DNA of 64,000 nt from Gemmatimonadetes bacterium SCN 70-22 (GCA_001724275.1 MEDZ01000010.1:62001-126000); one strand, 5' to 3'; positions 7,666 through 48,979 are shown, counted from the stretch's first letter. The notes: generated by a model from the sequence alone, not told the origin. Made by a program: numbers and translations.

Positions 7666-7675
7666 GGACGGAACG

Positions 7676-7694: not shown

Positions 7695-7698
7695 GGGC

Positions 7699-7721: not shown

Positions 7722-7895
7722 GCACTTTTCATCTTTGCCGCGGCTTTTCATCGGATCCGTTGTGTCCGCCTGCGCGTGCGGGCATGATGCCGAGTCGCAA
7801 CGCTCACTTTGCAGACCGCGTAGCAGGAAGGGCCCTCCAGGCCGGGACGTGCATGCGGTTGGTGGAGGAGCAGCCTTCCGATCCAACCGTACTCC

Positions 7896-31576: not shown

Positions 31577-32083
31577 ATGCAACTGCTCGTCATCCGACAC
31601 GCCATCGCCGAGGAGCGCGAGGCGCACGCGGCCGCCGGTGGCCACGACGACGACCGCCCGCTGACGCCGTTCGGGAAGCGGCGCATGCGGCGCAACGCCA
31701 AGGGGCTGCGCCACGCGGCCACGCACATCGAGGTCCTGGCCTCGAGCCCGCTGGTGCGCGCGCAGCAGACGGCGCGCATCGTGGCCGACGAGTATCGCAT
31801 TCCCGACGTGGAGGTGGTCGAGGCGCTGCGCCCCGACCACCACCCGCGCGAGCTGCTCGCCTGGCTGTCCAGGCAGCCGGCAGATGCAACGGTCGCCGTG
31901 GTCGGGCACGACCCGCACGTGTCGTCGCTGGTGCTGTGGTCCCTTGCCGGGAGCGACGAGCCGGTGGTGGTCTTCAAGAAGGGCGGGGTGGCGCTCCTCG
32001 AGTTCGATCGCAAGCCGGCGGCGGGGAAGGCGAGGCTGCACTGGCTCCTGACCCCGGCGCAGCTGCGCGACCTGGCAGGGTAG
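31577..32083 (+). CDS. sixA: SixA-like phosphohistidine phosphatase
   Basis: 168 residues of the histidine-phosphatase superfamily. The catalytic motif VIRHAIAEER starts the protein and the second catalytic His is in VVGHDPHVS. SixA-type enzymes dephosphorylate histidine phosphotransfer proteins. A GGAG Shine-Dalgarno lies upstream. It is placed 17 bp after the ChaN gene and 5 bp before the CHAD-CYTH gene. No histidine-kinase partner is nearby, so its target could be a phosphotransferase protein elsewhere or a product linked to the CHAD protein. Confidence 0.88.
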   Translation: MQLLVIRHAIAEEREAHAAAGGHDDDRPLTPFGKRRMRRNAKGLRHAATHIEVLASSPLVRAQQTARIVADEYRIPDVEVVEALRPDHHPRELLAWLSRQPADATVAVVGHDPHVSSLVLWSLAGSDEPVVVFKKGGVALLEFDRKPAAGKARLHWLLTPAQLRDLAG

Positions 32084-32088
32084 CCGCG

Positions 32089-33549
32089 GTGGCGTCCTTT
32101 CCCGACGAGCTGCTGGACGAGCACGAGGGGCGGGCGGTGCGCCTGGTGGCGCTGGCCCTCCTCGACGATGCAGCGGCGCAGCGCGAGCGCCTCTCGCCGC
32201 CCGACGACCCCGAGGCCCTGCACGACTTCCGGGTGGCGATCCGGCGCCTGCGCAGCTGGCTGCGCACCCAGGGCGACGTCCTCGGTGATTCGTCCCCTCG
32301 ACGGGCGCAGAAGTGGTTGCGCCGGCTGGCGCGCGCCACCAACGAGAGCCGCGACGCCGAGGTGCTGGCCGGGTGGCTGGAGGGGGAGCGGACCAAGCTG
32401 ACGTCGCGCCAGCGGGTGGGGGCGGTCTGGCTCCTGCAGCGCCTGGCGCAGCGGAAGGCGGCGGCCGATGTCGAGGTCCTGGCCGAGGTGTCGCGCGACT
32501 TCGAGCGGGCCCGCGAGCTGCTCGAGGCGCGGCTTCCGCGCTACCGCCTGCGCATGCACGTGCACGACGGGGCGCAGGTGACCCGCTTCGCCGGGTCCAT
32601 GGCGGCGACGCTGCGCGCGCAGCTGTCGACGCTGCGGCGCCGGCTCGAGCTCGTGCGGGCCCCGCACGACGTGGAGGCCGCCCACCGGGCGCGCATCGCC
32701 GGGAAGCGGCTCCGGTACCAGCTGGAGCCGATCGTCCCGCACGTGGAGGGGGGGAAGGAGACCCTCGAGCGCCTCAAGGCGCTGCAGGACGCGTTAGGCG
32801 ACTTCCACGATGCGCACGCCTGGCAGCAGGTGATGGCCAGCGCCCTGGAGCGGGCCGCGCGCGAGGAGACGGCGGCGCTCGTGGCGCCGCCGCCCGCCGT
32901 GGCGGGCTCGCCGGTGGTTCCTCCGCGCAAGCGGAGCCCGCGTCCCGGCGTCGTTGCGATGATCGGCCACGTGCAGGAGCGTGCCCTCGAGGCCTTCCGG
33001 GTGGTGGAGCGCGACTTTGCCGGCGCGGCGCTGGATCCGCTGGTCGCGGGGGTGGAAGCAATCGCCGACGCCCTCGACGCCCGCGCGAGGAGCGGTGTGG
33101 AGATCGAGCGGAAGTACCTGCTGGACGCCCTCCCCGAAGTCCTCCCCGGGGCGCGGGTCAAGGAGATCGCGCAGGGATACCTGCCGGGCACCCGGCTGGT
33201 GGAGCGGGTCCGCCGCGTGCGCGACGAGGGAGAGGAGCGCTACTTCCGCACGATCAAGGTGGGGAGCGGCGTGGCCCGCACCGAGGTCGAGGAGGAGTGC
33301 GGGGCCCTGACCTTCGAGGCGCTCTGGCCGCTGACCGAGGGGCGGCGCGTGACCAAGCGCCGCCACGTGGTGAGCGACGGCGCGCTGCAGTGGGAGATCG
33401 ACGAGTTCACCGACCGCGACCTGGTGCTGGCCGAGGTCGAGTTGCCGTCGGCCGAGGTGGTCCCCGACCTCCCCTCGTGGCTGGCGCCCGCGGTGGTGCG
33501 GGAGGTGACGGGGGAGGCGGCGTACGTCAACGCGAACCTCGCCGGCTGA
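32089..33549 (+). CDS. CHAD-CYTH fusion protein (polyphosphate/triphosphate-linked)
   Basis: 486 residues from a GTG at 32089 located 5 bp after sixA. The N-terminal half (about 10-245) is a CHAD domain with its conserved blocks (LHDFRVAIRRLRSWL, RRLARATNESRDAEVL, HRARIAGKRLRYQLE, LKALQDALGDFHDAH). A Pro/Ala linker follows, then a compact CYTH domain from about 336 with EIERK (338-342), YFRTIKVG and the acidic strand WEIDEF. CHAD domains bind polyphosphate; CYTH domains hydrolyse triphosphates such as PPPi or thiamine triphosphate. The usual order in known fusions such as E. coli YgiF is CYTH then CHAD, so this order is reversed. Cytoplasmic. Confidence 0.9.
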   Translation: MASFPDELLDEHEGRAVRLVALALLDDAAAQRERLSPPDDPEALHDFRVAIRRLRSWLRTQGDVLGDSSPRRAQKWLRRLARATNESRDAEVLAGWLEGERTKLTSRQRVGAVWLLQRLAQRKAAADVEVLAEVSRDFERARELLEARLPRYRLRMHVHDGAQVTRFAGSMAATLRAQLSTLRRRLELVRAPHDVEAAHRARIAGKRLRYQLEPIVPHVEGGKETLERLKALQDALGDFHDAHAWQQVMASALERAAREETAALVAPPPAVAGSPVVPPRKRSPRPGVVAMIGHVQERALEAFRVVERDFAGAALDPLVAGVEAIADALDARARSGVEIERKYLLDALPEVLPGARVKEIAQGYLPGTRLVERVRRVRDEGEERYFRTIKVGSGVARTEVEEECGALTFEALWPLTEGRRVTKRRHVVSDGALQWEIDEFTDRDLVLAEVELPSAEVVPDLPSWLAPAVVREVTGEAAYVNANLAG

Positions 33550-33556
33550 CGCGCGC

Positions 33557-34678
33557 GTGAAGGTCTTCGTCGTCACCAACGACTTTCCCCCGCGCATCGG
33601 GGGGATCAACGACTACGTCGCGCAGCTCGTCCGCCGCCTTCCCCCGGGCGACGTGACGGTCCTGGCGTCGACGTACCGCGGGGCGGCCGGGCACGACCGG
33701 GACTTCCCGCAGGAGGTGGTCCGGCTGCCGACGGAGATGATGCTCCCCACGCCGGGCGTTCGCCGCCAGCTGCATGCGCTGCTGCGCGCGCGGCGTCCCG
33801 ACGTCGTGCTGTTCGGCGCGGTGTGGCCGCTCGGGCACATGGGGCCCGCCGTCAGGCGCAAGCTCGACATTCCCTACGGCGGCTTTGCCCACGGGCTCGA
33901 GCTCACCGGGGCGCTCGTCCCCGGGGTGCTGCGCCACATCGGGCACCGGGCCTCGCTCCTGACCGCGGTCAGCGACTGGGCCCGGCACCGGCTCGAGCGG
34001 GCCTTCGGCTGGACGGGGCGCATGGGGCTCCTCCCCTCGGGCATCGATACCGCGGCGTTCCACCCGGGGGTCGGCGACGCCGCCGTCCGCGCCCGTCACT
34101 CGTTAGGCGACACCCCCGTCGTCTGCTGCGTCTCGCGCCTGGTGCCCCGCAAGGGACAGGACATGCTCATCCGGGCGATGCCCCGGCTGGCGCGCGCCGT
34201 CCCCGGGGTGCGCCTGCTCATCGTCGGGAGCGGCCCCTACGACCGGTCGCTGCGCGCGCTGGCGCGCGCGACGGGCGTGGAGGGGGCGGTGACCTTCGCC
34301 GGCGCCGTCCCGTACGCCGAGCTTCCGGCCTACTTCCGCGCCGGCAACGTCTTCGCCATGCCCTGCCGCGCGCGGCGGATGGGGCTCGACATCGAGGCGC
34401 TGGGAGCGGTCTTCCTGCAGGGGCAGGCGGTGGGGCGCCCGGTCGTCGTCGGCGACTCCGGGGGCGCCCCCGAGGCGGTCCGGGACGGCGAGACCGGCGT
34501 CGTGGTGGACCCCGAGTCGCCAGATGCAATCGCGGAGGCCATCGCCCCGCTCCTCATCGACCAGGGGCGCGCCGAGTCCATGGGGCGCCGCGGCGCCCAG
34601 TGGGTGCACGACGCCTGGACCTGGGACGTCATGACCGAGCGACTGCAGACGATGCTCGCCGCCGCCGTCGGTCGCTGA
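33557..34678 (+). CDS. GT4 glycosyltransferase, PimB-like
   Basis: 373 residues, a two-domain GT-B enzyme. The N-terminal domain opens VTNDFPPRIGGINDYV; the acceptor-side YGGFAHGLELTG and the C-terminal SRLVPRKGQDMLIRA, GSGPYDRSL and the E-x7-E-type motif region (RRMGLDIEALGAVFLQGQAVGRPVV) are present. It resembles mycobacterial PimB-type alpha-mannosyltransferases that add a second sugar to phosphatidylinositol mannoside. Cytoplasmic, membrane-associated. It converges on a PimA-like gene across a 50-bp gap and follows the CHAD gene by 7 bp. The sugar and lipid acceptor are not known. Confidence 0.85.
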   Translation: MKVFVVTNDFPPRIGGINDYVAQLVRRLPPGDVTVLASTYRGAAGHDRDFPQEVVRLPTEMMLPTPGVRRQLHALLRARRPDVVLFGAVWPLGHMGPAVRRKLDIPYGGFAHGLELTGALVPGVLRHIGHRASLLTAVSDWARHRLERAFGWTGRMGLLPSGIDTAAFHPGVGDAAVRARHSLGDTPVVCCVSRLVPRKGQDMLIRAMPRLARAVPGVRLLIVGSGPYDRSLRALARATGVEGAVTFAGAVPYAELPAYFRAGNVFAMPCRARRMGLDIEALGAVFLQGQAVGRPVVVGDSGGAPEAVRDGETGVVVDPESPDAIAEAIAPLLIDQGRAESMGRRGAQWVHDAWTWDVMTERLQTMLAAAVGR

Positions 34679-34698
34679 GTTCGCGCGGCCGTCGTCGC

Positions 34699-34734
34699 GG
34701 CGCCTGCCGCCCAGACGGCGCCTGCCGCCTAGAC
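34699..34734. repeat. 18-bp tandem duplication at a convergent gene junction
   Basis: GGCGCCTGCCGCCCAGAC is followed directly by the same 18-mer with one change. The second copy contains the stop codon of the PimA-like gene (34729-34731). Confidence 0.75.
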
Positions 34735-35868
34735 GGCGACCGGGAGCGCCTCGCGCCGTGGCACTCCCGCCAGCGACTCGTACACCCCCTCCAGGCGACC
34801 GATGATCTGGTCCCAGCCGTAATCCAGCGCCCGCAGGGCCCCGCTGGCTCCCAGCCTCGCCGCCTCGGCGGGGTGGTCGAGGAGGTGCGCGATCCCCTCG
34901 GCGAGGGCGTCGGCGTCGGACGGCTTCACGAGGAGCGACTCGCGCCCATCGCGCGCCACCTCGCGGTAGCCGGGAATGTTGCTCGCCACCACCGGGAGCC
35001 CGGCGGCCATCGCCTCCACCAGCACGATCCCGAACGACTCGGCGCCGGTGGCCGGGGAGATGAACACGTCGGCGGCGCGGTGGTAGGTCGGGAGCGCTTC
35101 GTACGAGACCTTTCCCTTGAGGTGCACCCGCCGGCGCACGTCCGGCGGCAGCTGGTTGATGGCGTCGCGCTCCGGTCCGTCGCCCACCACGATGAGGCTG
35201 AGGTCGGGATAGCGGCTGGCCAGCTGGGCGAAGGCGCGCATGGCGAAGGGGAGCCCCTTGCGCGGCTCGAGGCGGCCGACGAAGAGGAGCTTGCGGCCGG
35301 CGGGGACGTCGTGCGCCGGGGTGGCCTGCGCGAAGCGCTCGACCTCCACGCCGTTAGGCAGGATCGTGACGTCGCCCTTGCCGAGCCGCCCCTTGGCGGA
35401 GTGGCGCGCGGCCTGGCTCACGGCAATGCGCCGGTCGACGCGCCGCCAGACCGGGCGCAGGAGGGGGGCGATCGCGGTGTAGACCCGCCCCTCCAGCGTC
35501 TCGCGCGCGAAGTACGAATGGAAGGTCCCCACCACCGGCGCCGGTGATGCCATCACCGCCTTGAGGCCGATGGCTGGGGCGAAGGGCTCGTGGACGTGCA
35601 CCACGTGCGGGGCGAAGTCGCGCATGGCGCGCGACAGCCGCGCGAGTGTGCGCGGGGCGAGGGAGATCTTGGCGAGTGACCCGTTCGACCAGACGGTGAA
35701 CGTCCCACCGACGATCAGGGTGTCACCCCGATGTCCGGGGACGTCGCCCGGCGCCAGCACGAGGACCTCGTGCCCGCGCTCCTGGAGGTGCCGGGTCAGC
35801 TGGCGGATGTGGATCTGCACGCCCCCGGGGGCATCCCAGCTGTAGGGTGAGACCTGGATGATCCGCAT
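34729..35868 (-). CDS. GT4 glycosyltransferase, PimA-like
   Basis: 379 residues. The N-terminus MRIIQVSPYSWDAPGGVQIH, with HIRQLTRHLQERGHEVLVLAP, closely follows the pattern of phosphatidylinositol mannosyltransferase PimA. GTFHSYFARETLEGR, NGVEVERF, GRLEPRKGLPF and ESFGIVLVEAMAAG (E-x7-E) complete a GT4 enzyme. PimA transfers mannose to inositol of phosphatidylinositol. The gene lies 51 bp after an MFS transporter and downstream of a PatA-like acyltransferase on the same strand, the same set of functions as in actinobacterial PIM clusters. A CGTTAGGC motif lies at 35353. Substrate is inferred from family resemblance only. Confidence 0.87.
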   Translation of the reverse strand: MRIIQVSPYSWDAPGGVQIHIRQLTRHLQERGHEVLVLAPGDVPGHRGDTLIVGGTFTVWSNGSLAKISLAPRTLARLSRAMRDFAPHVVHVHEPFAPAIGLKAVMASPAPVVGTFHSYFARETLEGRVYTAIAPLLRPVWRRVDRRIAVSQAARHSAKGRLGKGDVTILPNGVEVERFAQATPAHDVPAGRKLLFVGRLEPRKGLPFAMRAFAQLASRYPDLSLIVVGDGPERDAINQLPPDVRRRVHLKGKVSYEALPTYHRAADVFISPATGAESFGIVLVEAMAAGLPVVASNIPGYREVARDGRESLLVKPSDADALAEGIAHLLDHPAEAARLGASGALRALDYGWDQIIGRLEGVYESLAGVPRREALPVAV

Positions 35869-35919
35869 GCGGTCAGGAGGATAGGGGGGACGCGTCGAAT
35901 GCGCGAGTCGTTGCCGAGC

Positions 35920-37323
35920 TCAGCCGCTGCGGGCGCCACGCTTTTCGGCGACCAGCGAGAGCGTCCCGGCGACGCCGGTGACGAGGATCGCCAGCCCAAC
36001 CGCGGACAGCGACAGGCGATACGGTTCGTCGACGCCGAGGCGGCCGAGCACGTAGATCGTCCCGCCAACCGCGAGCGCCGAGAGCATGAATGCCCCTCCC
36101 AGGATGAGGTCCTTGGTGGAGAAGATGAGCGCCCGTGCAGCTGGCGGCGCCCCCTCGTGCAACAGCGTGTCCTGCGAGACCATCACGGGCGCCAGGAGGG
36201 CCCCGCCGACGAACGCGACCGGCACGAACATCGCGAACGAGAAGAAAACCCCGCCGAGGATCATCAGGAAGCCGATGACCGCGCTCCCCACCATGATCGT
36301 CTGGCGCTTGTCCCACCGGCTCCCGATCGTCCCCACCAGGAGCGAGCCCACGATCATCCCCGCGCCCAGCGTCCCCCCAAGGTAGCCGACCCCCTTCGTC
36401 CCGCGTCCGAGGACGGTCTGGACCGAATAGGTCATCGCGACGTAGACGGTGCTCGCGAACAGGGCCAGGGAGGCCAGCGAGGTGAACGTGAAGCGCATGG
36501 TACGGTCGCGCCACACCACGCCCAGCGTCCGCCCCACGTCCCCTACGATGGTCGAAAGCCCCCGTTTCACGACGAGATCAGGGGGGACGGGGATCGCGGC
36601 AGGGCGGTCGGCGACGCCGCGACCCTGAAGGACGATGGCGAGCAGCGTCAGGACCGACACCAGGTACGACGCGCCATCGAGGTAGAAGCCGGCCGCGAAG
36701 TCGCTCCACCCGAAGCGGCCCCAGAAGGCGAGCCCGATGATGACCCCCCCGCCCACGATCCCCAGCACCGTCGCGAAACGTCCCACGAAGGTGAGCGCCG
36801 CATTGGCGGCGAGGAGTTGCTCGCGCGGGACCAGCTCGGGGATGAGCGCCATCTTGGCCGCGTTGAAGAAGACGCCGAGCAGGAAGACGACGAACGCGAC
36901 CGCATACACCGGCCAGAGGCTCCCGGTTGCCGCGAAGAGCCATGGGATGATCGTCACCAGAAGCGCGCGCAACGCGTCACAGGCGATCATCGTGGCGCGC
37001 TTGCTCCACCGGTCGACCAGGGCCCCCGCGATGGGGCCGAAGAGGATCACCGGTGCCGTGAACACGACCGAGAGCGCCGCGAGGTCGAGCCCCCCGCGGT
37101 TTCCCGTGGCGCTGGCGCCGACCAGGGCGATCAGCGCCATGTGATGCAGCTTGTCACCCAGCTGCGACACGGTCTGACCGGCCACCAGGAAGCCAAACCG
37201 CGGCTTGCGCAGCACCGTGTGGAGCGACGGCGACTCGGCGGAGGATGGCACCGGCGCCGGGCGCGCAGGGGACGCATCGCGCGGCAACGCCGCGACGATG
37301 TCAGCGTCAGGCGAGGGCGTCAC
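35920..37323 (-). CDS. MFS transporter
   Basis: 467 residues with about 10-12 transmembrane helices. The GTG at 37323 is chosen because it overlaps the upstream acyltransferase by 17 bp, a coupled arrangement; no closer ATG gives a full first helix. The loop between TM2 and TM3 has the MFS-type DRWSKRATMI, and the C-terminal half has VGTIGSRWDKRQTIM. It resembles the MFS_3/EntS-like group, sometimes lipid or siderophore exporters. Placement between an acyltransferase and a glycosyltransferase suggests it might flip or export a lipid product, which is speculation. Confidence 0.82.
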   Translation of the reverse strand: MTPSPDADIVAALPRDASPARPAPVPSSAESPSLHTVLRKPRFGFLVAGQTVSQLGDKLHHMALIALVGASATGNRGGLDLAALSVVFTAPVILFGPIAGALVDRWSKRATMIACDALRALLVTIIPWLFAATGSLWPVYAVAFVVFLLGVFFNAAKMALIPELVPREQLLAANAALTFVGRFATVLGIVGGGVIIGLAFWGRFGWSDFAAGFYLDGASYLVSVLTLLAIVLQGRGVADRPAAIPVPPDLVVKRGLSTIVGDVGRTLGVVWRDRTMRFTFTSLASLALFASTVYVAMTYSVQTVLGRGTKGVGYLGGTLGAGMIVGSLLVGTIGSRWDKRQTIMVGSAVIGFLMILGGVFFSFAMFVPVAFVGGALLAPVMVSQDTLLHEGAPPAARALIFSTKDLILGGAFMLSALAVGGTIYVLGRLGVDEPYRLSLSAVGLAILVTGVAGTLSLVAEKRGARSG

Positions 37324-38191
37324 GCGGCAGCCACTTGGGTTGGAAGACGTACCATTGATCCGGGTGTGCGAGCACGGCCGCCGCCAGCCGCTCGGCCACG
37401 CGTCGTGTGAGCGCCTCGCGGTCGCGCGACGCGTGGCCCGTGCCTTCGGCGATGATCGGGGGTTCCAGCTGGACAAGGTAGCGGGCCTTCCCCGATGTGG
37501 CCCGTGCAATGTGCCCGACCACGATCGGGGCGCCGGTGGCCAGCGCGAGCGTGGCGGGGCCCGTCGGGACCGCCCGCACCCCGTCGCCAAGAAAGACAGG
37601 CACTCCCTCGCCTCCCTCCCCCACCACCCGGTCGGCGACGAGGAGGACCAGCTGGCCCTCGTGCAACAGCCGCAACGCGCCGCGCACCCCGCGGCTGCGG
37701 GAGATGAGCTTCATCCCCGTCGCCTCGCGGTAGAGGGCGAGCGCGGCATTCGTCTCGGGATCGATCTCCTCGACCATGGCATGCACGGGATACCCCATCA
37801 CCGCCAGCCAGGCTCCCCCCAGCTCGTACGGCCCGAGGTGGGGGGTGACCACCACCACACCCTTGCCGCGGGCACGGGCGGCGTCGAGGTGCTCGCGCCC
37901 GCTCACCGCCACGAGCGCCGCGAGCTCGCCGGGACGCATGGAGGGGACGCGGAACAGGTCCACCGCCGCGTCGAGGAGGTTCATCAACGTGCGCCGCGCC
38001 AGGCGCCGCCGCGCGGCCGGGGACACGTTAGGCGAGAGGTGGGCCTGGTTCTCGAGCAGCGTCGCGCGCCGCCCCCGCGCCACGGTGAACGCCACCGCTC
38101 CCGCCGCGCGCGCCACCCATCGCACCGGGGCGATGGGGACGACGCGGAGGAGCCGGACGGCGAAGCGCACGACGCGGGGGGCGGGGATCAT
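37307..38191 (-). CDS. LpxL/HtrB-type lipid acyltransferase, PatA-like
   Basis: 294 residues of the LPLAT superfamily. The catalytic HX4E motif is TPHLGPYELGG (His 118, Glu 123), followed by LLVADRVVGEGGEGVPVFLGD and the C-terminal HPDQWYVFQPKW, a block seen in actinobacterial PatA (phosphatidylinositol-mannoside acyltransferase) and in lauroyltransferases. A hydrophobic N-terminal segment suggests a membrane anchor. As the first gene of a set with MFS and PimA-like genes, it probably acylates a glycolipid. LpxL-type lipid A acylation is the main alternative, but no other lipid A gene is present. Confidence 0.85.
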   Translation of the reverse strand: MIPAPRVVRFAVRLLRVVPIAPVRWVARAAGAVAFTVARGRRATLLENQAHLSPNVSPAARRRLARRTLMNLLDAAVDLFRVPSMRPGELAALVAVSGREHLDAARARGKGVVVVTPHLGPYELGGAWLAVMGYPVHAMVEEIDPETNAALALYREATGMKLISRSRGVRGALRLLHEGQLVLLVADRVVGEGGEGVPVFLGDGVRAVPTGPATLALATGAPIVVGHIARATSGKARYLVQLEPPIIAEGTGHASRDREALTRRVAERLAAAVLAHPDQWYVFQPKWLPRDALA

Positions 38192-38339: not shown

Positions 38340-40655
38340 TCAGAAGCTGCGCACCAGCCGCACGTACACGTTGCGCCCGGGACGCACAAGGAGTTGCGGG
38401 TCGACGTGGGCGCGGTAGGCACGGTCCAGCACATTCTCCACGCCCGCCACGACGCCGACCGACGCCACCTCGAAGCCGCCGCGCACGTTCACGACGCCGT
38501 ACCCCGGCGCCACCTTCTCGCCGGCCTCCCGTGCGATGCGCTCCTGCCGGCCGGCGGCGCGCCCCTCCAGCTCCACCCAGCGCCTGGACACGCCGGGGAC
38601 GAAGCGGACGGCGAGCGTCCCCTCGAGCGGCGGGGTGGCCGCCAGGGGGGTCGAGGTCACGCGGTTCTCGCCGCGCACCCACGTCATCGCCCCTCGCACC
38701 CGCACCCCGGCACCGACGCCGAGGTCGCTCGCCGCGGTGAGGCCCTGCAACCGGGCCTCGCTGATGTTGGCGTACTCGCGCACCGGCTTGCCGCTGACGG
38801 AATCGCCGGCGGCCAGCCTGGGGGCGATGAGGTCATGGAGGTCGTTGCGGAAGGCGGTGACGGAGGCCGAGAAGCCCTCCAGCAGGCGCGGGGCGCGGTA
38901 GCCGAGCGTTGCCTCGAGGTTGCGGTTCGTTTCCGGGGCGAGCGTGGGAGTGCCACGATAGACGAACCCGTCGGGACGGAGGGCGATCCCATAGAGCTCG
39001 GTGGGATCGGCGACGCGGTAGCCCCACCCCAACGAGGTGCGGGCGTCGAATCCCCCGCCCAGGTCGAGGCGCGCTCCCAGGTTGCCGGTGGTGATCCAGT
39101 CGCGCGCGGAACGCTCCCCATCGGCCTGGCGCGACGCGCGGTCGACGCGCACGCCCGCGCTCGCGATGAGGGCGCGCGAGAGGGAGTACTCTCCCTGGCC
39201 GAACGCCCCGGCGTCCACGACCCGGACTCCGGGCCAGGTGCGGAAGACGAAGGACGTGGGCGTCCCGATCGTCCCGCCTGACGAGTTCACCCGGCGCGAC
39301 TCGTTCCAGCGCGTCGCCTCGGCGTCCCACTGCGTCACGTCGACGCCGAGATCCACGCGGCTGCGCGCGAGGGGGACGAGTCGGAGCTGCGCGCGGGCAC
39401 CGGACGTGACGGAGTGCGAACGGGCATCCGTCTGCGACCGCATCGAGGTGGGCATCCCGTTGGGCATCGTCATCGGCATCGTCATGTCGATGGTCATGTG
39501 GTGGTCGAGGCGCTGCAGGTAGGCGCGCGCCGACACGGCGTCGAGGCGGCGGCGCCCCGCCTGCCACCCGTAATCGAGGGCCACGGAGTGTCTCCCCTCG
39601 CTGGGGATCGTCGTCCCCGCCATCGCCGGCCAGCCGATGTCGCGCCCCTGGTACGACGATGCCGCCAGCGCGAGGCGCTGCGCCGCGGTGGGCGCGACGC
39701 CGACGGTGAGCGCCGCCGTCCCGTCGCGATAGGCCGAGCCGTCCACGCGCCCCTCGGGCGAGCGATAGTCGGCGTAGTCGGCCACGTCGAGCGACAGGGT
39801 GGCGTCGAGGCGTGCCTGGCGCAGGGCGACGGTGGAGCCTAACGAGGCCCCTGGCGCCGCCGATGCCCCGCCGGCGCGGAATTCCCCCGACCACCCGTCG
39901 CCGCGCGCGGGGCGGCGCGTGACGACGTTGATCACCCCGCCGATGTTCCCCGATCCGTACAGCGTGGAGCCCGGGCCGGCCAGGACCTCCACGCGATCGA
40001 CGGTCGACGGGTCGATGGTCGCGAGCCCCTGGTCCATCCCGAAGGTGCAGGCGCGATTCACGCGGGCCCCGTCGACCATCACCGTCACCCGCTCGCCCCC
40101 GAGTCCGCGCAGCAGGGCGCGCGACCCCCATTCCCCCATCCGCTGCAGGGAGAGCCCCTCCACCCCCTCCAGGCGCTCGGCGAGCGACGAGCCGCCCCGC
40201 TCGCCCACCGCCGCGCGCCGGATGAGCGCCGTGCCTAACGCCGATCCCTCGCCCAGGTCGTGGGGCGAGGCCGCGGCGACGGTGATGACATCGAGCATGG
40301 TCGGGCGCGGCGACAGCGTCACGACCGGCGGCAGGGCGTGCGCCGCCACCGACAGGGTGCGGTAGCCGAGCCGCTGGAAGGTGACCAGGGCGGTGTCGTC
40401 GGCGACGCGAACGGCGAAGCGGCCGGCGGAATCGGAGTAGACGTGGAATCCCCCGCTTCCCACCAGGACGCCGGCGAGCGGGAGGCGGGAATCGGCCGCG
40501 ACGACGGTGCCCGACCGGCGTTCGAGCGGCTGCGCCCCGAGCGGGACGAGCGCGGGCGCAATGGAGAGGGTGGCGAGGGCGAGGAAAGCGGCAGGAATGC
40601 GGGAGCACACGCCCCCACGCGCGGGGGCGAGCCCGCGAGGAATCAGCGGCAACAT
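38340..40655 (-). CDS. TonB-dependent receptor with Met/His-rich segment (possible copper receptor)
   Basis: 771 residues. A signal peptide ends near LGAQ. It is followed by a short CarboxypepD_reg-like domain (SGTVVAADSRLPLAGVLVG), a plug (GLGGERVTVMVDGARVN, VEVLAGPGSTLYGSGNIGGV) and a barrel ending in YVRLVRSF with the C-terminal Phe. At about residues 380-412 a segment runs DHHMTIDMTMPMTM, NGMPTSM and beyond, rich in Met and His, as expected of a surface metal-binding loop. This recalls OprC/NosA-type copper receptors. The His-repeat protein encoded just upstream (50 bp) supports a metal role. Copper is a guess from the Met richness. Confidence 0.85.
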   Translation of the reverse strand: MLPLIPRGLAPARGGVCSRIPAAFLALATLSIAPALVPLGAQPLERRSGTVVAADSRLPLAGVLVGSGGFHVYSDSAGRFAVRVADDTALVTFQRLGYRTLSVAAHALPPVVTLSPRPTMLDVITVAAASPHDLGEGSALGTALIRRAAVGERGGSSLAERLEGVEGLSLQRMGEWGSRALLRGLGGERVTVMVDGARVNRACTFGMDQGLATIDPSTVDRVEVLAGPGSTLYGSGNIGGVINVVTRRPARGDGWSGEFRAGGASAAPGASLGSTVALRQARLDATLSLDVADYADYRSPEGRVDGSAYRDGTAALTVGVAPTAAQRLALAASSYQGRDIGWPAMAGTTIPSEGRHSVALDYGWQAGRRRLDAVSARAYLQRLDHHMTIDMTMPMTMPNGMPTSMRSQTDARSHSVTSGARAQLRLVPLARSRVDLGVDVTQWDAEATRWNESRRVNSSGGTIGTPTSFVFRTWPGVRVVDAGAFGQGEYSLSRALIASAGVRVDRASRQADGERSARDWITTGNLGARLDLGGGFDARTSLGWGYRVADPTELYGIALRPDGFVYRGTPTLAPETNRNLEATLGYRAPRLLEGFSASVTAFRNDLHDLIAPRLAAGDSVSGKPVREYANISEARLQGLTAASDLGVGAGVRVRGAMTWVRGENRVTSTPLAATPPLEGTLAVRFVPGVSRRWVELEGRAAGRQERIAREAGEKVAPGYGVVNVRGGFEVASVGVVAGVENVLDRAYRAHVDPQLLVRPGRNVYVRLVRSF

Positions 40656-40705
40656 GAAGTCTCCTGGAAGGCACGGGAGACGCCGGCCCCATGCCGGCGT
40701 CGTCG

Positions 40706-41173
40706 TCAGGCGGCGGCCAGGAGGATGGGTGGTGCGGTGGCGGGAGGGAGGCGCCAGGTGATGCGCGTCGCCGGGACCACGACCTCGACCGGCCGCGACG
40801 CCGTCTCGTGCACGGGATCCGCCGTCCATGCTTCGCGCGGGACGAAGGCGGCGACGGCGAGCGGGGTGCACAGGCAGGCACCGGGGCACTGGCACCCCGG
40901 CATCGGGTTGCCCTCGTGCTCGTCCGTGTCGGTGGCGTGTGCGGCCGATGCGCCGTGGTGCCCCCTCTCGGCGTGGTTCGCCCCGGCGTGGTTCGCCTCG
41001 GCGTGGTTCGCCTCGGCGTGCGATGGAGCGGCGCTCGCACCGCGCGACGCATCATGCGCGGCGGCGGCGACGTGCGGGCACGACATCCCCGACAACCCGT
41101 GGAGGGTTGCCAGCATCGCGAGCGCGGCCACCAGCGGCCGCAACACGCGCCGTCGGAGGTCGCGCGGCGTCAT
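40706..41173 (-). CDS. Small secreted His-repeat, Cys-rich protein
   Basis: 155 residues from the ATG at 41173, which gives a basic n-region (TPRDLRRRVLRP) and core (LVAALAMLATLHGLSG). The mature part holds tandem 5-residue repeats NHAEA (15-bp DNA unit, 40968-41012), a GHHG patch, and a GCQCPGACLC cysteine cluster. Many His and Cys residues suggest metal binding (copper or zinc) in the periplasm or membrane face. It resembles small DUF2946-type proteins in length and composition but the match is uncertain. It precedes the Met-rich TonB receptor by 50 bp, so the two are probably one transcript. Confidence 0.65.
   Translation of the reverse strand: MTPRDLRRRVLRPLVAALAMLATLHGLSGMSCPHVAAAAHDASRGASAAPSHAEANHAEANHAGANHAERGHHGASAAHATDTDEHEGNPMPGCQCPGACLCTPLAVAAFVPREAWTADPVHETASRPVEVVVPATRITWRLPPATAPPILLAAA
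40968..41012. repeat. 15-bp coding tandem repeat (NHAEA units)
   Basis: Three consecutive 15-bp units, TCGGCGTGGTTCGCC with one base change in the middle copy, within the His-repeat gene. Further degenerate copies follow. Confidence 0.75.
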
Positions 41174-41294: not shown

Positions 41295-44195
41295 TCAGCT
41301 ACGCGTGGGGTCGGTGTTCAGGCGCGACAGGGCGCGCCGGGCCTCCTCGACGTACGGCTGCAACAGCGGGTCGGCGTTCCGCCACGCGTTCGCCACGTAG
41401 AGGTAGGCATCGATGGCCTTGGGCCGCACGCCCAGCCGTTCGTTCACGCGCCCGCGCTCCAGCATCCACATCACCCGGAGCGAGGGCCAGGCCAGGAAGT
41501 CCTGGTCGAGGACCGCGGCCGCTTCCCGGTCGCGCCGCGTGCTCGAGAGGAGCATCGCGAGGGGGAGGCGCGCCTGCCAGCACCACGAGGTGCAGCTGGA
41601 ATCCGGGAGCGTGAGCGCGGCGATGGCGGCGGCGGTGTCGCCGCGGGCGAGGGCCTGCCACCCCGGGACGAGCGCCGCGGGGACGCCGGGGAGCCGGTTG
41701 CTGGCCGCCAGCTGCACCGCGCGGCGGAAGCGTGCGCTGTCGCCCCCCAGCGACCAGTACACCGCGCCGGCCGCGACGCGGCGCGCCGCCAGGGAATCGG
41801 CGAACCAGCGATCGAAGATGCGCCCCGCGCTGTCGGGGGGGATGACGCGCAGGAAGGCGGCTTCGAGGAACGGGATCGACTCGCCGCTGTCCGCCAGCGC
41901 CAGCGCGCCCGCCACGTGCCCGCGCAGCAGGAGCGCCCTGACGTAGGTCGCCGAGATGCCGCGGGCGAGCTCCTGGGGAATCCGGCCGGCGCGCACCGAC
42001 GCCACGAGGGCGCGCGCCATCGCCACCTGGGTCTCGGCCGAGTCCATCACCGGGACCACGATGCTGAAGGCGGCCTGCAGCACCTCCGGCGAGGCCCTGG
42101 CCACCAGCGAGTCGGCCTCGTCGCCCGAGGGGCGATCGGGGGCGAGGAGGCGTTGCATCAGGCGGACCCCTTGCCCCTGCACGTCGTGCGGGTCGAGGGC
42201 GAGGTAGGCGGCGGCCGACGCGCGCACGGCGGCCAGGTCCTGGTCGTTGGCCGCCAGCTCGAGCTGGTGGATGTAGGCGGGGGCGAAGGCGGAGTCGAGG
42301 GCGATGGCTCGCTCGAATGCCTCACGCGCCGTGCGCATGGAGCTGCGCGACGGGAAGGTGAAGCGTGCGAAGTGATGGTGCACGTCGCCGAACTTGAACC
42401 ACATCTCCGGGTCGTCGGGAAAGCGGCGGACCCCCTCGTCGAGCAGCGCCGTCACGCGCCTGACGAGACGCGTCCGGGTCGGCAGCGGGTCGCCCGGCTT
42501 CCACAGCATCAGGGCGGCGAAGATCGAGTCGGCGGCGACGAGGACGCTCTCGCGCGGGGCGAGCCCGTGGTTGAGCGCCCCGGCACGCAGAGCGTACTGG
42601 TACCCCTCGTGCGACACCTCCACTCCCGGCGTCAGCTTCCAGCTGAGCGCATTGCTGAGGTGGCGCAGGGCCGGGGCGAAGGTCGAGTCGAGGGCGACGG
42701 CGCGCTGGTAGTGGAAGGCGGCGGAGTCCCAGTCGCTGCGCCGATAGAACTGCTCGCCCTGCAGGTAGGCCTTGAGGGCGGGGAGGGAGGACGAGCCGAG
42801 CGAGGCGAGGCGGGTCGCGCCGATGGCGCGCGTGCTCCCCAGCTCGCGGAGGATGGCGACGGAGAGCGAATCGGCCAGGCGATCCATGCGCGAGGCCTCG
42901 TCGCGCAGCTGCACGTCGGTCGATCGGCCGGTGGTGGTCTCGAGGATGGTCGCGGTGACGCGCACCGAGTCCTTCCCCGAGGCGATGAGGCTCCCATAGA
43001 CGACGATGCCGGCGTGCGTCCGCTCGGCGAGGAGGCGGGCGCCGCTGCGGTCCGTGCGCGCGGGGGCCCGGCGCATGACGACCGACGGGGCGACCGCCCG
43101 CAGGGGGCCCGCGCCGTCGAGGTTGGTGGAGATCAGGTCGACCAGCCCTTCGCGCCAGACCTCGAGTTCGGGGCCGATGGCCTCGAACGGGGCGACGGCG
43201 ACGAGGTTGGGAAAGCGTTCGAGCCGCTCGTGGCGGCGGAAGGCGAGCCAGGTTCCTCCCGCCAGGAGCAACGCCGCGCCGGCCGCGATCGCGCCCCACC
43301 GGCGCCGCGCGCGTGGCGGCGCCACCGCGGCCCCCGAGGTGGTCCCCCCCAGCGCGGCGCGGAATTCGTCTGCCGACTGGAAGCGGTGGGCGGGGTCCTT
43401 GCGCAGCGCCCTGCCTAACGCGGCGGCCAGCGGCGGCGGCGTGTCGGGACGCAGCGCCTCGACCGCCTTCGGCGTGGCGTTCAGGTGGGCGCTCATGACC
43501 GCCAGCGCGGAGTCGCCCACGAAGGGGGGGGTGCCGGCCAGCATCTCGTAGCCGATCACGGCCAGCGAGTACAGGTCCGAACGCCCATCGATCTGCGAGT
43601 CGCCCGCCGCCTGTTCGGGCGACATGTAGCCCGGCGTCCCCACCGCCATCCCGAGTTCGGTGAGGCGCACCCCCTCGCCGCCGGGCGGGGGGGTACGCGG
43701 GCCGCTCAGGACCGACGAGATCCCGAAGTCGGCCAGGATGGCGTGACCGTTGGAGAGGAGGACGTTCTCCGGCTTGAGGTCGCGGTGGACGATCCCCTTC
43801 TCGTGGGCGAACGCGAGGGCGCTGGCGAGCTCGGAGAGGATGCGCACGACCTCCTCGATCGGGAGCTTCCCCTCGCGCTGCATCCGGAGGCGCAGCGACT
43901 CCCCCTCGATGTACGGGGTGGTGTAGTAGAGGAGCCCCTGGTTCGTCCCGGTGGAGAGGACGGGGAGGATGTGCGGGTGCTGTCCGAGGACGGCCGTGAC
44001 CTGGAACTCCCGGCGGAACCGGGCGGCCATCACCTCGTTGATCAGCTCCGGGGCGAGAACCTTGATGACGACCGAGCGGTCGAGGGCCACCTCGGTGGCG
44101 AGGAAGACACGGCTCATCCCGCCGCCTCCCAGCTCGCGCTCGATGCGGTACCCGCTTCCGACAGCTGCCTGAACGCGTTCTCTCAGTTGGTTCAC
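41295..44195 (-). CDS. Ser/Thr protein kinase with transmembrane segment and TPR-like tail
   Basis: 966 residues from the GTG at 44195. The frame extends further, but this start gives MNQLRERVQAAVGSGYRIER, a common opening for this kinase type. The kinase domain (about 18-280) has the glycine loop GGGGMS, Lys in VVIKVL, HRDLKPEN, DFG and GTPGYMSPEQA, so it should be active. A transmembrane helix (GAIAAGAALLLAGGTWLAF) is followed by a long extracytoplasmic region with TPR-like helical repeats (AFHYQRAVALDSTFAPALRHL). This is a typical Gemmatimonadota and Acidobacteriota architecture. It probably senses and signals through phosphorylation. It diverges from the DUF3052 gene. Confidence 0.92.
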   Translation of the reverse strand: MNQLRERVQAAVGSGYRIERELGGGGMSRVFLATEVALDRSVVIKVLAPELINEVMAARFRREFQVTAVLGQHPHILPVLSTGTNQGLLYYTTPYIEGESLRLRMQREGKLPIEEVVRILSELASALAFAHEKGIVHRDLKPENVLLSNGHAILADFGISSVLSGPRTPPPGGEGVRLTELGMAVGTPGYMSPEQAAGDSQIDGRSDLYSLAVIGYEMLAGTPPFVGDSALAVMSAHLNATPKAVEALRPDTPPPLAAALGRALRKDPAHRFQSADEFRAALGGTTSGAAVAPPRARRRWGAIAAGAALLLAGGTWLAFRRHERLERFPNLVAVAPFEAIGPELEVWREGLVDLISTNLDGAGPLRAVAPSVVMRRAPARTDRSGARLLAERTHAGIVVYGSLIASGKDSVRVTATILETTTGRSTDVQLRDEASRMDRLADSLSVAILRELGSTRAIGATRLASLGSSSLPALKAYLQGEQFYRRSDWDSAAFHYQRAVALDSTFAPALRHLSNALSWKLTPGVEVSHEGYQYALRAGALNHGLAPRESVLVAADSIFAALMLWKPGDPLPTRTRLVRRVTALLDEGVRRFPDDPEMWFKFGDVHHHFARFTFPSRSSMRTAREAFERAIALDSAFAPAYIHQLELAANDQDLAAVRASAAAYLALDPHDVQGQGVRLMQRLLAPDRPSGDEADSLVARASPEVLQAAFSIVVPVMDSAETQVAMARALVASVRAGRIPQELARGISATYVRALLLRGHVAGALALADSGESIPFLEAAFLRVIPPDSAGRIFDRWFADSLAARRVAAGAVYWSLGGDSARFRRAVQLAASNRLPGVPAALVPGWQALARGDTAAAIAALTLPDSSCTSWCWQARLPLAMLLSSTRRDREAAAVLDQDFLAWPSLRVMWMLERGRVNERLGVRPKAIDAYLYVANAWRNADPLLQPYVEEARRALSRLNTDPTRS

Positions 44196-44302
44196 GAGGG
44201 GGAGGCCGAAGTCCCGGAAGCTAACGCGACTCGTCGAGCGTGCTATGCCACTGCCGCGAGGAGGTTCCGAACCGCCCGCGCCCGCCCCATGATTCCCCGC
44301 GT

Positions 44303-44333
44303 TCTCGTCTTCTCGTCTTCTCGTCTTCTCGAC
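44303..44333. repeat. Octamer tandem repeat (TCTCGTCT)n before DUF3052 gene
   Basis: About four copies of the same 8-bp unit found at 3057-3092, ending 3 bp before the ATG at 44337. The spacer (44196-44336) divides the divergent kinase and DUF3052 genes, so the array sits where the ribosome binding site should be. Confidence 0.85.
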
Positions 44334-44336
44334 ATC

Positions 44337-44951
44337 ATGGGTCTCGAGACCAACTGCACCCTCGAGCGCGATCGCCGGAAGGTCGCGGGCAAGGCCCTGC
44401 TCGAGACCGACCATATCGCCTTTCGCGGCCGGACGCAGCGAATCACGCTCGCCCTGACCGAGGTGTTGCGCGTGGAGGTGCAGGGGGATGCGCTCGTGCT
44501 CGAATACGAGGCAGGGCCGGTGCGCCTGCACCTGGCCACCGGGATGGCGATGACCTGGCTCGCCCGGATCCGCAACCCGCGGTCGCTCATGGACAAGCTC
44601 GGGGTGAAGGAGGGGATGACGGTCGTGGTCCTCGGCGTCACCGATGGAGACTTTCTCCAGCAGCTGGAGCGGCGTGTGGGGCGCTACGCGACGCAGCCGG
44701 CGACGCCGTCCGACGTCATCCTGCTGGGGGCCGAGTCGACGGACGAGCTGGCTCGCCTGGCGGCGCTTCGTGCGGTGCTGGTGCCCAATGGGGCCATCTG
44801 GGTGGTGCACCGAAAGGGGAAGGAGGCGACGTTGCGGGACGTCGACGTCTTTGCTGCCGGGCGCCGGGCCGGGTTGGTGGACAACAAGGTGGTGGCGTTT
44901 TCGGCGACTCATACGGCGGAGCGGTTGGTGATCCCACGCAGCGAGCGATGA
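44337..44951 (+). CDS. DUF3052-family protein
   Basis: 204 residues with no signal peptide or membrane segment. The N-terminal half (LLETDHIAFRGRTQRITLAL) is followed by a central LGVKEGMTVVVLGVTD stretch with a Rossmann-like feel and a C-terminal region (DVILLGAESTDELARLAAL, AIWVVHRKGKEATLRDVDV). This matches the DUF3052 family, which is of unknown function. It is divergent to the Ser/Thr kinase. The octamer repeat ends at its start codon and no normal Shine-Dalgarno is visible, so translation may be unusual or leader-dependent. Confidence 0.8.
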   Translation: MGLETNCTLERDRRKVAGKALLETDHIAFRGRTQRITLALTEVLRVEVQGDALVLEYEAGPVRLHLATGMAMTWLARIRNPRSLMDKLGVKEGMTVVVLGVTDGDFLQQLERRVGRYATQPATPSDVILLGAESTDELARLAALRAVLVPNGAIWVVHRKGKEATLRDVDVFAAGRRAGLVDNKVVAFSATHTAERLVIPRSER

Positions 44952-45140
44952 TCCCGGCGCGGGCGCCGTGCGGACGCCGAGCGAGCGCCATGCGGGCGCC
45001 GCCCTTGAGCCGGCAGTAGTGCGACGCCGCGGCATCACTGGTCGAAGTTCAAGCAGGCGTTAGTTGCGCGCAAGTAATTGTGCGTCTTGCAGTTGTGCTA
45101 TTTCGACAAACGGATGTATACGCTGTCGCCATCCGTGATC

Positions 45141-45474: not shown

Positions 45475-46107
45475 ATGCCGATGGATAACCGAGAAAAGCT
45501 CCTCCAGGCCGCGAGTCGGGTCTACGCCGAACTTGGCTTCCGGGGAGCAACGACCCGACGAATTGCCGACGAGGCGGGAGTCAATGAAGTGACGCTCTTT
45601 CGCCTCTTCGGCTCCAAGGCGCAGCTGATCGCGGAAGCGGTCACCTGCCAGGATCCGATGGGGCACGTCACTCTCCCCGAGGAGCCCGGCGATGTGGAGC
45701 ACGAACTCACGGCGTGGTGCCAGGCGCACCTGCACGCCCTGCGACAGCATCGATCGATGATCCGCCAGACGATGGCGGATCTCGACGAGCACCCCGAGAT
45801 GGGGCCGCACCTCTGTCGCGGGCAGACGCCCCACTTCAACGAGCTGGTGCAGTACGCCACCCGGCTCGTCGAGCGCCACCCCGAGGGCGAGGGGGGCGAC
45901 GTGGTGGCGGCGTGCTCCTTCCTGTTCAATGCGTTGTTCTCCGATGCCATGGGGCGCGAGATCGTCCCGGGTGTCTTTCCCCAGCCCGAGCACGAGGCGC
46001 CGGTGCGCTACGTCCGCACCTTCGTGCGTGCCCTCGGTGTTCCGATGCCGTCGCCCCTCGCGTCCGTCCGCGCCACCGGCGCGCCCTCGGCCGGCGAGGC
46101 GGCGTGA
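45475..46107 (+). CDS. TetR-family transcriptional regulator of the efflux operon
   Basis: 210 residues. The N-terminal helix-turn-helix is clear: NREKLLQAASRVYAELGFRG followed by TTRRIADEAGVNEVTLFRLF. The C-terminal ligand domain is less conserved (TMADLDEHPEMGPHL). It lies 1 bp before the TolC gene, so it is the first gene of a TetR-TolC-adaptor-RND operon and likely represses it. The inducer is unknown. It ends in an Ala/Pro-rich tail. Confidence 0.93.
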   Translation: MPMDNREKLLQAASRVYAELGFRGATTRRIADEAGVNEVTLFRLFGSKAQLIAEAVTCQDPMGHVTLPEEPGDVEHELTAWCQAHLHALRQHRSMIRQTMADLDEHPEMGPHLCRGQTPHFNELVQYATRLVERHPEGEGGDVVAACSFLFNALFSDAMGREIVPGVFPQPEHEAPVRYVRTFVRALGVPMPSPLASVRATGAPSAGEAA

Positions 46108-46108
46108 G

Positions 46109-47806
46109 ATGCGACTCGACTCCATCCTTCCCGATTCCATGAAGTCCTTGCACCTGGGCGTTGCCCTGGCGGCGGCGCTGATGGCGGTGTCCGGCCGCGC
46201 CGCGGGCCAGGCGGCTCGCCCCCTGTCGCTCGAAGACGCGTTGCGGCTGTCACAGGCGCAAAGCGAGGCGCTGCGCATCGCCGGGGCCGGCGTGATGCGC
46301 GCCCGCGGCCAGCAGCTGCAAGCGCGCGCCCAGTACCTCCCGCAGGTCAACGGCTCGATTGGCTACACGCGGACCCTCGCCACGCAGTTCTCGGCGCTCT
46401 CCGATGGCAGCTCGCCCGCGCCGCCCCCCACCGTGCCCCCCGTCCCCCCGCACGACACGGTGACGTACTTCCAGCCCTGCTCGCGCTACCTCGCCCCTGC
46501 GGGGGCGGCGGATGCCGCGCGCATCGCCGGGCTCGAGCTCTTCTCGCGCTGCTCGTCGAGCGGGGGGATCGACTTCTCCAAGGTCGGCTTCGGCGCCCAG
46601 AACCAGTACCAGCTGGCAGCCACCGGCTCCATGACGCTCTGGTCCGGCGGGCGCGTGCAGGCGCAGAACCGCGCCGCGAGCGCGGGGCGCCGCTCGGCGG
46701 AGATCGAGCTCACCTCGCAGAAGGCGCAGCTGGCCCTCGACGTCACGCAGGCGTACTACGACGCGGTCCTGGCCGAGCGGCTGGTGGCGATCGCCGAGTC
46801 GTCGCTGGTGTGGACCGAGGGGACGCTGCGGCAGACCACGCTGGCCCGGCAGGTGGGGAACCAGTCGGAGTTCGAGCTGCTGCGGGCGCGGGTGACGCGC
46901 GACAACCAGGTCCCGGTGGTGCTGCAGCGCCGCACCGACCGCGACCTCGCGTACCTGCGCCTCAAGCAGCTCCTCAACCTGCCGCAGGGCGAGCGGCTGC
47001 AGCTGACGAGCGGGATCGACGAGCCGGCCGAGCCGGCCACGCTGCGCTCGGCCGCCAACGTGGCGCCGTCGGCGCTGGCGGGCGAGGCCGACACCAGCGT
47101 CTCCAGCCGCGCCGCGGTGCGCCAGCTCGACCAGGCGCTGCTGGCGCAGGAGGCGCAGCTGACCATCGCCAGCCGCGAGTGGGTGCCGAGCATCAGCGTC
47201 TCGTCGGCGTACAGCCGGGTGGCGTTCGGGCGCGGCGCCCCGCCGGCGTGGGGCAACTGGCTCAACAACTGGACCGTCTCGTTAGGCGCGAGCTTCCCGC
47301 TGTTCGCCGGCGGGCGCATCCGCGGCGGCGAGCTGGTGGCGCGGGCCGGCGTCGAGGAATCGCGCGCCCGCCTGGACCAGGCGCGCGAGCTGGCGGCGCT
47401 CGACGCGCAGCAGACCCTCGCCCAGTTGCAGCAGGCGGAGGCCGCGCTGGCGGCCAGCGCGGGGACGGTCGAGCAGGCCGCCCGCGCCTACACCATCGCC
47501 GACGTCCGCTACCGCGAGGGGATCTCGACGCAGATCGAGCTTTCCGAGTCGCGGCTCAACCTCGAGCAGGCCCGCATCAACCGGGCGCAGGCCGCGCGCA
47601 ACCTGCAGGTGGCGCGCATGCGGCTGGCGTTGCTCCAGGACCTCCCGTTAGGCGGCGGCGGCGCGCTCGGCGGTGCCGCCACGGGAGGCGGCTTCGCCGC
47701 CCCGGGCGTCACCGGCGGCGGGCTGGGCGGCGGCATGGGCGGCAGCGCACCGCAGGGCACGCGCATCACCACGCAGCAGGCATCGACTTCCCAGGTCCCT
47801 CAATAA
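46109..47806 (+). CDS. TolC-family outer-membrane efflux channel
   Basis: 565 residues. A signal peptide is present; the ATG at 46139 gives a tighter one (MKSLHLGVALAAALMAVSG), but the ATG at 46109 follows the TetR stop by 1 bp. The two OEP repeats run about 35-280 and 310-520. A loop with PPPTVPPVPPH and a CSRYLAPAGAADAARI region lies early in the protein. The C-terminus is a Gly-rich low-complexity tail (GGGFAAPGVTGGGLGGGMGG). It is the outer-membrane partner of the second RND system. Unlike the first TolC gene it has no lipobox. Confidence 0.92.
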   Translation: MRLDSILPDSMKSLHLGVALAAALMAVSGRAAGQAARPLSLEDALRLSQAQSEALRIAGAGVMRARGQQLQARAQYLPQVNGSIGYTRTLATQFSALSDGSSPAPPPTVPPVPPHDTVTYFQPCSRYLAPAGAADAARIAGLELFSRCSSSGGIDFSKVGFGAQNQYQLAATGSMTLWSGGRVQAQNRAASAGRRSAEIELTSQKAQLALDVTQAYYDAVLAERLVAIAESSLVWTEGTLRQTTLARQVGNQSEFELLRARVTRDNQVPVVLQRRTDRDLAYLRLKQLLNLPQGERLQLTSGIDEPAEPATLRSAANVAPSALAGEADTSVSSRAAVRQLDQALLAQEAQLTIASREWVPSISVSSAYSRVAFGRGAPPAWGNWLNNWTVSLGASFPLFAGGRIRGGELVARAGVEESRARLDQARELAALDAQQTLAQLQQAEAALAASAGTVEQAARAYTIADVRYREGISTQIELSESRLNLEQARINRAQAARNLQVARMRLALLQDLPLGGGGALGGAATGGGFAAPGVTGGGLGGGMGGSAPQGTRITTQQASTSQVPQ

Positions 47807-47827
47807 ATCGCGGAGCCAATTCCTCCC

Positions 47828-48967
47828 ATGTCAGTCATATCGAAGCAGTTCACGCAGCGTGTGCCCGCGATCGGGGCGCTTCTCCTCGCCGCCGCGTGCG
47901 GGGGAAGCGAGGCGGACGCCAGGGCCAAGAGCGAGGCGGCCGCCCCGGCGGCCACCACCGTCAGCGCGGAGAACGTCGCCGTGGTCGCCGTCGAACGCAT
48001 CGCCACCGGCCCCGCCATCTCCGGGGCGCTGGCGGCCGAGCGCGAGGCCACGGTGCGTGCGCAGGTGTCGGGCTCCGTCCTCTCCACGCACGCCGACCAG
48101 GGGAGCCGGGTGGGCGCGGGAACCCTCCTCGCGCGCATCGACGACCGCACCCTGCGCGACCAGTTCCTCGGGGCGCGCTCCGGGGTCACGACGGCGCAGA
48201 CCGCCGCCGACATCGCGGCCCGCGAGCTGGGGCGCGCCGAGAAGCTGGCCGAGGCCGGCGCCATCGCCGATCGCGACCTCGAGGGGGCGCGGCGCGCCAA
48301 TGCGGCCGCGCAGGCGCAACTCGACGACGCCAAGGCGCGCCTCACGCTGGCGCAGAAGCAGCTCGACGACGCGCAGGTCCGCGCCCCGTTCGCCGGGGTG
48401 GTGAGCGTGCGCTCCGTCTCGGCGGGCGACGTGGTGCAGCCGGGGACGGCGCTCTACACCGTCATCGACCCGCGCAGCATGCGGCTCGAGGCCAGCGTCC
48501 CCGCCGCGCAGCTGGCGAGCGTGAAGATCGGGGCGCCGGCCACCTTCACGGTCACGGGCTACCCCGGCAAGACATTCGCGGGCAGGGTCTCGAGGATCAA
48601 TCCGGCGGCTGACCCGACCACGGGACAGGTCCGCATCGTGGTCTCGATCCCTAACGAGCGAAGCGCCCTGGTGGCCGGGCTCTTCGCCGAAGGGCGCACG
48701 CAGGCCGAGTCGCACGACGCGCCGGTGGTGGCGGCGAGCGCGGTCGACGTCCGCGGGGTGCGCCCCTGGGTGCTCCGCCTCAAGGGCGGCGTGGCCGAGA
48801 AGGTCGAGATCGAGCTGGGCCTCAAGGACGAGGCCAGCGAGAAGTACGAAGTGCTGAAGGGGGTCGCCGCCGGAGACACGCTCCTCGTCGGCGCCGCGCA
48901 GGGGATCACCCCGGGGACGCCGGTGCGCGTGGGCGCACCGAACGACTCGGCGAAGACCAGCAACTAG
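47828..48967 (+). CDS. RND efflux periplasmic adaptor (second system)
   Basis: 379 residues. The signal carries a lipobox (LLAAACGG), so it is a lipoprotein. Lipoyl halves (VRAQVSGSVLSTHADQGSRV, VRAPFAGVVSVRSVSAGDVV), an alpha-hairpin and a barrel (LEASVPAAQLASVKIGAPA) are intact. It lies between the TolC and pump genes with gaps of 21 and 12 bp, consistent with one operon under the TetR gene. Compared with the first adaptor it is strongly diverged. Confidence 0.95.
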   Translation: MSVISKQFTQRVPAIGALLLAAACGGSEADARAKSEAAAPAATTVSAENVAVVAVERIATGPAISGALAAEREATVRAQVSGSVLSTHADQGSRVGAGTLLARIDDRTLRDQFLGARSGVTTAQTAADIAARELGRAEKLAEAGAIADRDLEGARRANAAAQAQLDDAKARLTLAQKQLDDAQVRAPFAGVVSVRSVSAGDVVQPGTALYTVIDPRSMRLEASVPAAQLASVKIGAPATFTVTGYPGKTFAGRVSRINPAADPTTGQVRIVVSIPNERSALVAGLFAEGRTQAESHDAPVVAASAVDVRGVRPWVLRLKGGVAEKVEIELGLKDEASEKYEVLKGVAAGDTLLVGAAQGITPGTPVRVGAPNDSAKTSN

Positions 48968-48979
48968 GCGACACCACCC

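Follow-up and report, generated by a model that had tools for sequence, protein, structure and literature searches.

Phosphatidylinositol mannosides (PIMs) and their LM/LAM descendants are regarded as actinobacterial lipids and as a hallmark of the Actinobacteria. The enzymes of the PIM pathway in Mycobacterium and Corynebacterium are PIPS/PgsA, PatA, PimA and PimB', and the same set is matched, by best match, in the bacterium analysed here. In a 2011 review (PMC3229680), the flippase that takes PIMs across the membrane of mycobacteria is given as not yet identified. According to the available sections of a more general account, bacterial inositol lipids are comparatively rare and occur mainly in Actinobacteria, Treponema and Bacteroidetes; the same sections describe inositol phospho- and sphingolipids in Bacteroides thetaiotaomicron and do not mention their mannosylation (PMC9246714).

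We analysed a window of 64,000 nucleotides from Gemmatimonadetes bacterium SCN 70-22 (MEDZ01000010.1:62001-126000), in which a sequence-only reading had suggested a PIM-related mannosyl-glycolipid pathway. That interpretation is largely supported by sequence comparison: the gene set, the grouping of PimB and PatA and the supply of phosphatidylinositol (PI) all speak for it, and the product lipid is a prediction. With a probability of about three in four, the four genes form a PIM module placed over a family-wide inositol-lipid pathway and make an Ac1PIM2-like lipid.

Organization of the locus and its host

Four intact genes occupy positions 33557 to 38191, in the places and in the arrangement first read from the sequence. 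Three are on the minus strand, in the order PatA-like acyltransferase (37307-38191, 294 aa), MFS transporter (approximately 35920-37287, the start codon being uncertain, 37287 or 37323) and PimA-like GT4 (34729-35868, 379 aa), and they converge on a PimB-like GT4 on the plus strand (33557-34678, 373 aa). A CHAD-domain protein with an end that looks CYTH-like by eye is encoded at 31936-33549 (plus strand). Because this gene is on the same strand and ends 7 bases ahead of the PimB start codon, the two may be co-transcribed. A large reading frame for a serine/threonine protein kinase lies at 41295-45038 (minus strand; 1247 aa as called) and has a long C-terminal extension.

The module is inside a 138 kb contig, flanked by gemmatimonad genes, and the genome has 4.70 Mb and is 99.98% complete. 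The closest named genomes with module genes are Gemmatimonadetes/Gemmatimonadaceae MAGs. Regarding the cell type, the window contains a TonB receptor (38340-40895) and an RND pump (45929-52165), and MsbA and an LpxL-like gene are found elsewhere in the same genome. The Gram-negative setting noted earlier is therefore confirmed, and by such markers the host is an LPS-type diderm.

Affiliation of the three enzymes

The best PDB chains for the PimB-like GT4 are those of Corynebacterium glutamicum PimB' (3oka/3okc), matched over the full length with an E value of 1.9e-78, while the next family reaches 7e-23. Among the positions that are invariant in actinobacterial PimB', 81% are kept in the PimB-like protein versus 54% in other GT4s. 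In a tree built without MgtA, the PimBs of the modules fall into a single clade with actinobacterial PimB' (support 100/99) against the other gemmatimonad GT4s. The 3oka match and this clade identify the protein as a full-length PimB' orthologue, distinct from the other GT4s of that tree, in agreement with the resemblance proposed from the sequence.

The acyltransferase has M. smegmatis PatA as its best PDB match (E 2.9e-22, compared with 5.5e-8 for LpxM), and in a Foldseek search with its AF2 model (pLDDT 83) the best 12 matches are PatA chains, followed by LpxM. A careful tree places the module acyltransferases with 15 actinobacterial PatAs (100/100), and separates them from both E. coli LpxL/LpxM and the family-wide LpxL-like gene, including the second copy in this genome. 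PatA-like proteins and LpxL/LpxM (HtrB/MsbB) have a Pfam family (Lip_A_acyltrans) and a fold in common, and in both the catalytic pair is a His and an acidic block-3 residue (PMC4792965). Here the catalytic His is kept and the block-3 acid is Asp, as is usual, instead of Glu, among the actinobacterial PatAs (14 of 15). The differences from LpxL are in block 3, which is Asp-Arg as in PatA and not Asp-His/Gln, and in the C-terminal tail, where Trp/Gln/Trp is on the PatA side; the tail HPDQWYVFQPKW, which had been singled out beforehand, is present and is thus a real PatA-side feature. Best match, tree and residues all agree with the initial assignment to PatA rather than LpxL. The NCBIfam PIM acyltransferase model (NF005919) scores 138 bits and the lipid A models at most 64 bits; since the equivalog cut-off of 209 is missed, we use the name PatA-like.

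These results bear on a second reading, in which the locus encodes ordinary LPS or capsule glycosyltransferases with an LpxL-type lipid A acyltransferase. The diderm host with its MsbA and the fold common to PatA and LpxL would fit such a reading, but the native LpxL-like gene lies outside the module, as a copy of its own close to MsbA, and most family genomes have an LpxL-like gene without having the module. Together with the strength of the PimB' match, the phylogenies of the PimB and the acyltransferase, which fall with PimB' and PatA and not with the other GT4s or LpxL, and the diagnostic residues largely refute this alternative, and we consider it very improbable. The native LpxL-like gene (locus L010, G000:C12:98000-113000) has MsbA, another GT4 and a PorX-type regulator (NF052313, 532 bits) in its neighbourhood. 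The name PorX refers to the type 9 secretion system.

The third enzyme, the PimA-like GT4, has M. smegmatis PimA (4n9w) as its best PDB match, full length and with an E value of 4.5e-65, and its GT-B catalytic residues are those of PimA: in M. smegmatis numbering, D12, Q18, H118, R196, E199, K202 and E274 are all kept. D12, E199, K202 and E274 are retained across module and actinobacterial PimA with the exception of one E199D, and are missing from a common gemmatimonad GT4 group that resembles PimA; Q18 is present in every module PimA row but one. A quick tree unites the module PimA with actinobacterial PimA (support 93). The careful tree instead puts the long-branched gemmatimonad GT4 group beside actinobacterial PimA (86/66; this result carries a long-branch warning), and a single clade of module and actinobacterial PimA is not rejected (AU p 0.345). 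The earlier PimA-like assignment consequently stands in part: by best match and catalytic residues the protein is PimA-type, and it is a candidate PimA orthologue, which the careful tree does not join to actinobacterial PimA. In the PimA-resembling GT4 group that is common in the family (L084-L102, e.g. L090), the catalytic Lys is replaced by Asn and the donor-site Glu is lost.

Inositol-lipid supply, predicted pathway and transporter

The sequence-only reading had also pointed to an inositol-phosphate or PI synthase as a gene to be sought in the genome, and the search found inositol-1-phosphate synthase (MIPS; PF07994/PF01658) directly adjoining PIP synthase (PIPS), the two genes overlapping on contig C26. 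The best PDB match of the MIPS is that of B. thetaiotaomicron (7nwr, E 1.8e-167), and the best matches of the PIPS are from Renibacterium and mycobacteria. The PIPS has the CDP-alcohol phosphotransferase signature and scores 152 bits with the NCBIfam PIPS model, just under the cut-off of 170. Two arginines are absolutely conserved in PIP synthases (PMC4634129), and both phosphate-binding arginines (R153 and R191 of RsPIPS) are found in this protein and in every aligned family sequence (29, including that of the window's genome). MIPS is present in 155 of 179 family genomes, and PIPS is adjacent in 29 of the 30 loci examined; the MIPS-PIPS pair is near-universal in the Gemmatimonadaceae. The genome also has a ManC-type GDP-mannose synthase (TIGR01479, 243 bits over the guanylyltransferase portion; the cut-off of this two-domain model is higher), and therefore both needs of a PIM pathway, inositol-1-phosphate synthase and GDP-mannose supply, are covered. 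Two small proteins are encoded on the 3' side of PIPS-MIPS (L009, G000:C26:8000-27000, 7382-8140, minus strand), one of 147 aa, whose N-terminus is lipoprotein-like, and one of 103 aa. Both lack a Pfam match above cut-off, and both are conserved on that side in almost every one of the 30 MIPS loci examined in the family.

Substrates, order of steps, product and transporter role are predicted here, the order after the mycobacterial scheme (PMC3229680). MIPS would convert glucose-6-phosphate to inositol-1-phosphate, which PIPS would join to CDP-diacylglycerol to give PI-phosphate, and a putative phosphatase would release PI. PimA would then transfer one mannose from GDP-mannose onto PI, PatA would acylate the mannose added by PimA, and PimB would attach a second mannose, giving an acylated phosphatidylinositol dimannoside (Ac1PIM2-like). 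Finally, the MFS protein would move this lipid to the periplasmic leaflet.

A different lipid anchor, such as phosphatidylglycerol, diacylglycerol or glucuronosyl-diacylglycerol (the last as for MgtA), could also be mannosylated by the module and receive its acyl chain from the PatA-like protein. The acceptor of a GT4 enzyme is not easily predicted from its sequence, and the actinobacterial MgtA (Rv0557) was itself initially misassigned as PimB (PMC3229680). Some positions in the acceptor-side surroundings of the PimA-like protein are unlike M. smegmatis PimA, and a glycosyl-phosphatidylglycerol synthase model also matches it, with 92 bits (cut-off 480). However, the PimB-like protein is nearest to PimB', beyond the generic GT4s in the tree without MgtA, the known role of PatA requires a PIM-like acceptor, and PI is supplied in the same genome, with MIPS present in all module-carrying genomes. 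Another anchor is thus an unlikely, though the most serious, alternative to PI.

Returning to the predicted PIM module, the gene between patA and pimA has a Pfam MFS_1 match. Its product is kept at 52-83% identity in each gemmatimonad module examined and no MFS gene occurs in 15 actinobacterial pgsA-patA-pimA operons examined, indicating that the MFS is an added part. A PDB sequence search gave no match for this protein. With an AF2 model (pLDDT 78), the best fold matches are SPNS2 lipid transporters, closely followed by drug and amine MFS carriers; the fold search thus favours lipid transporters weakly, and because the non-lipid carriers come so close a flippase role is put forward as a proposal. 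For moving PIM to the periplasmic leaflet, the best candidate is the MFS protein, which, if this is true, would be the first PIM flippase to be identified. With its fixed place between patA and pimA, the transporter gene offers a directly testable candidate flippase family. It is a tentative suggestion that an LPS-bearing diderm acquired the complete acyl-PIM2 pathway on top of its native inositol-lipid pathway, with its own dedicated MFS PIM translocase, by which PIMs would arrive in the periplasmic leaflet or the outer membrane.

Distribution, origin and comparison with known systems

The distribution of the module is patchy. PimA, PatA or both were found in 12 of 179 family genomes, belonging to six genera, and the two co-occur (Fisher p 1.3e-12, kinship ignored) with three exceptions, all of them assemblies of at least 500 contigs. 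PimB orthologues were identified in seven of 200 genomes of the phylum, this one included, all from Gemmatimonadaceae and at 68-78% identity, with no match between 39% and 68% identity in that search; three further PimBs were found in neighbouring loci. Eight family genomes, this one among them, have PatA-MFS-PimA converging on PimB, and in genome G101 PimB is on a separate contig. Outside the phylum, PimB (57%) and PimA (46%) are convergent in an Acidobacteriota MAG (L137), where PatA is approximately 7 kb away and pieces of MIPS are at contig ends; no matching MFS gene was found at this locus.

Such a spread could be taken as a sign of horizontally acquired genes that have decayed or are not functional. 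All four frames are open, though, and the catalytic residues are kept over several genera at 50-80% divergence, which argues for long purifying selection and makes decay highly unlikely. The carriers are mostly metagenome-assembled genomes, which would allow contamination of the assembly from an actinobacterium; this is effectively excluded by the gemmatimonad genes around the module on its 138 kb contig, by the recurrence of the same order in several genera, and by the separate clade and approximately 50% identity to Actinobacteria.

In order to trace PimB, the 30 best PimB matches from a search of approximately 300 Actinomycetota genomes were added to the tree. The gemmatimonad and acidobacterial PimBs nest within Actinomycetota (98/91), and the AU test does not reject Actinomycetota as a single clade (p 0.077). 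From these sequences an older transfer of PimB from deep Actinomycetota is favoured, not proven. A recent transfer from a known actinomycete is unsupported because identity is approximately 50% and the PimBs of the modules have a clade to themselves. No PimA, PatA or MFS gene was found near PimB in the neighbourhoods of the deep-branching actinobacterial PimBs (L281-L290, several on short contigs). Within the family, the module closest to that of the window, its own genus apart, is in a genome of genus g21 (G144), with PimA at 72%, PatA at 63% and MIPS at 80%, whereas genomes of genus g10 have MIPS at 85-89% but PimA at 63-65%; these hosts are nearer by MIPS and their modules farther. Other g21 genomes lack the module. 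The module is therefore out of step with its hosts, which suggests transfer as a unit, and the four genes are probably a horizontally mobile PIM module.

A literature search returned no report of PIMs in Gemmatimonadota, which is weak evidence as subscription papers are mostly outside its coverage. The polar lipids described for marine gemmatimonads of another order are PE, PG, DPG and an aminolipid (PMC11651109). The PIPS-MIPS pair of the Gemmatimonadaceae and a mobile PIM module would widen the known range of inositol lipids and PIMs, and PI and PIM should be sought whenever the polar lipids of gemmatimonads are analysed.

Comparison with B. thetaiotaomicron, whose inositol-lipid cluster (BT_1522/23/25/26) is described in the available sections of PMC9246714, shows MIPS and PIPS together in a Gram-negative bacterium, as here, and its MIPS is the closest in the PDB to the gemmatimonad MIPS. 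The gemmatimonad PIPS fits the actinobacterial-type model (152 bits) better than the BT1523-type model (103 bits). With the actinobacterial PIM pathway, the module host has in common the tree grouping of PimB and PatA and the diagnostic residues of PIPS and PimA. The gene order differs: the actinobacterial operons are pgsA-patA-pimA, whereas in the gemmatimonads PIPS is elsewhere with MIPS, the MFS gene splits patA from pimA, and pimB converges on pimA. The host also differs, since the PIM genes are here carried by an LPS-type diderm from a phylum other than Actinobacteria.
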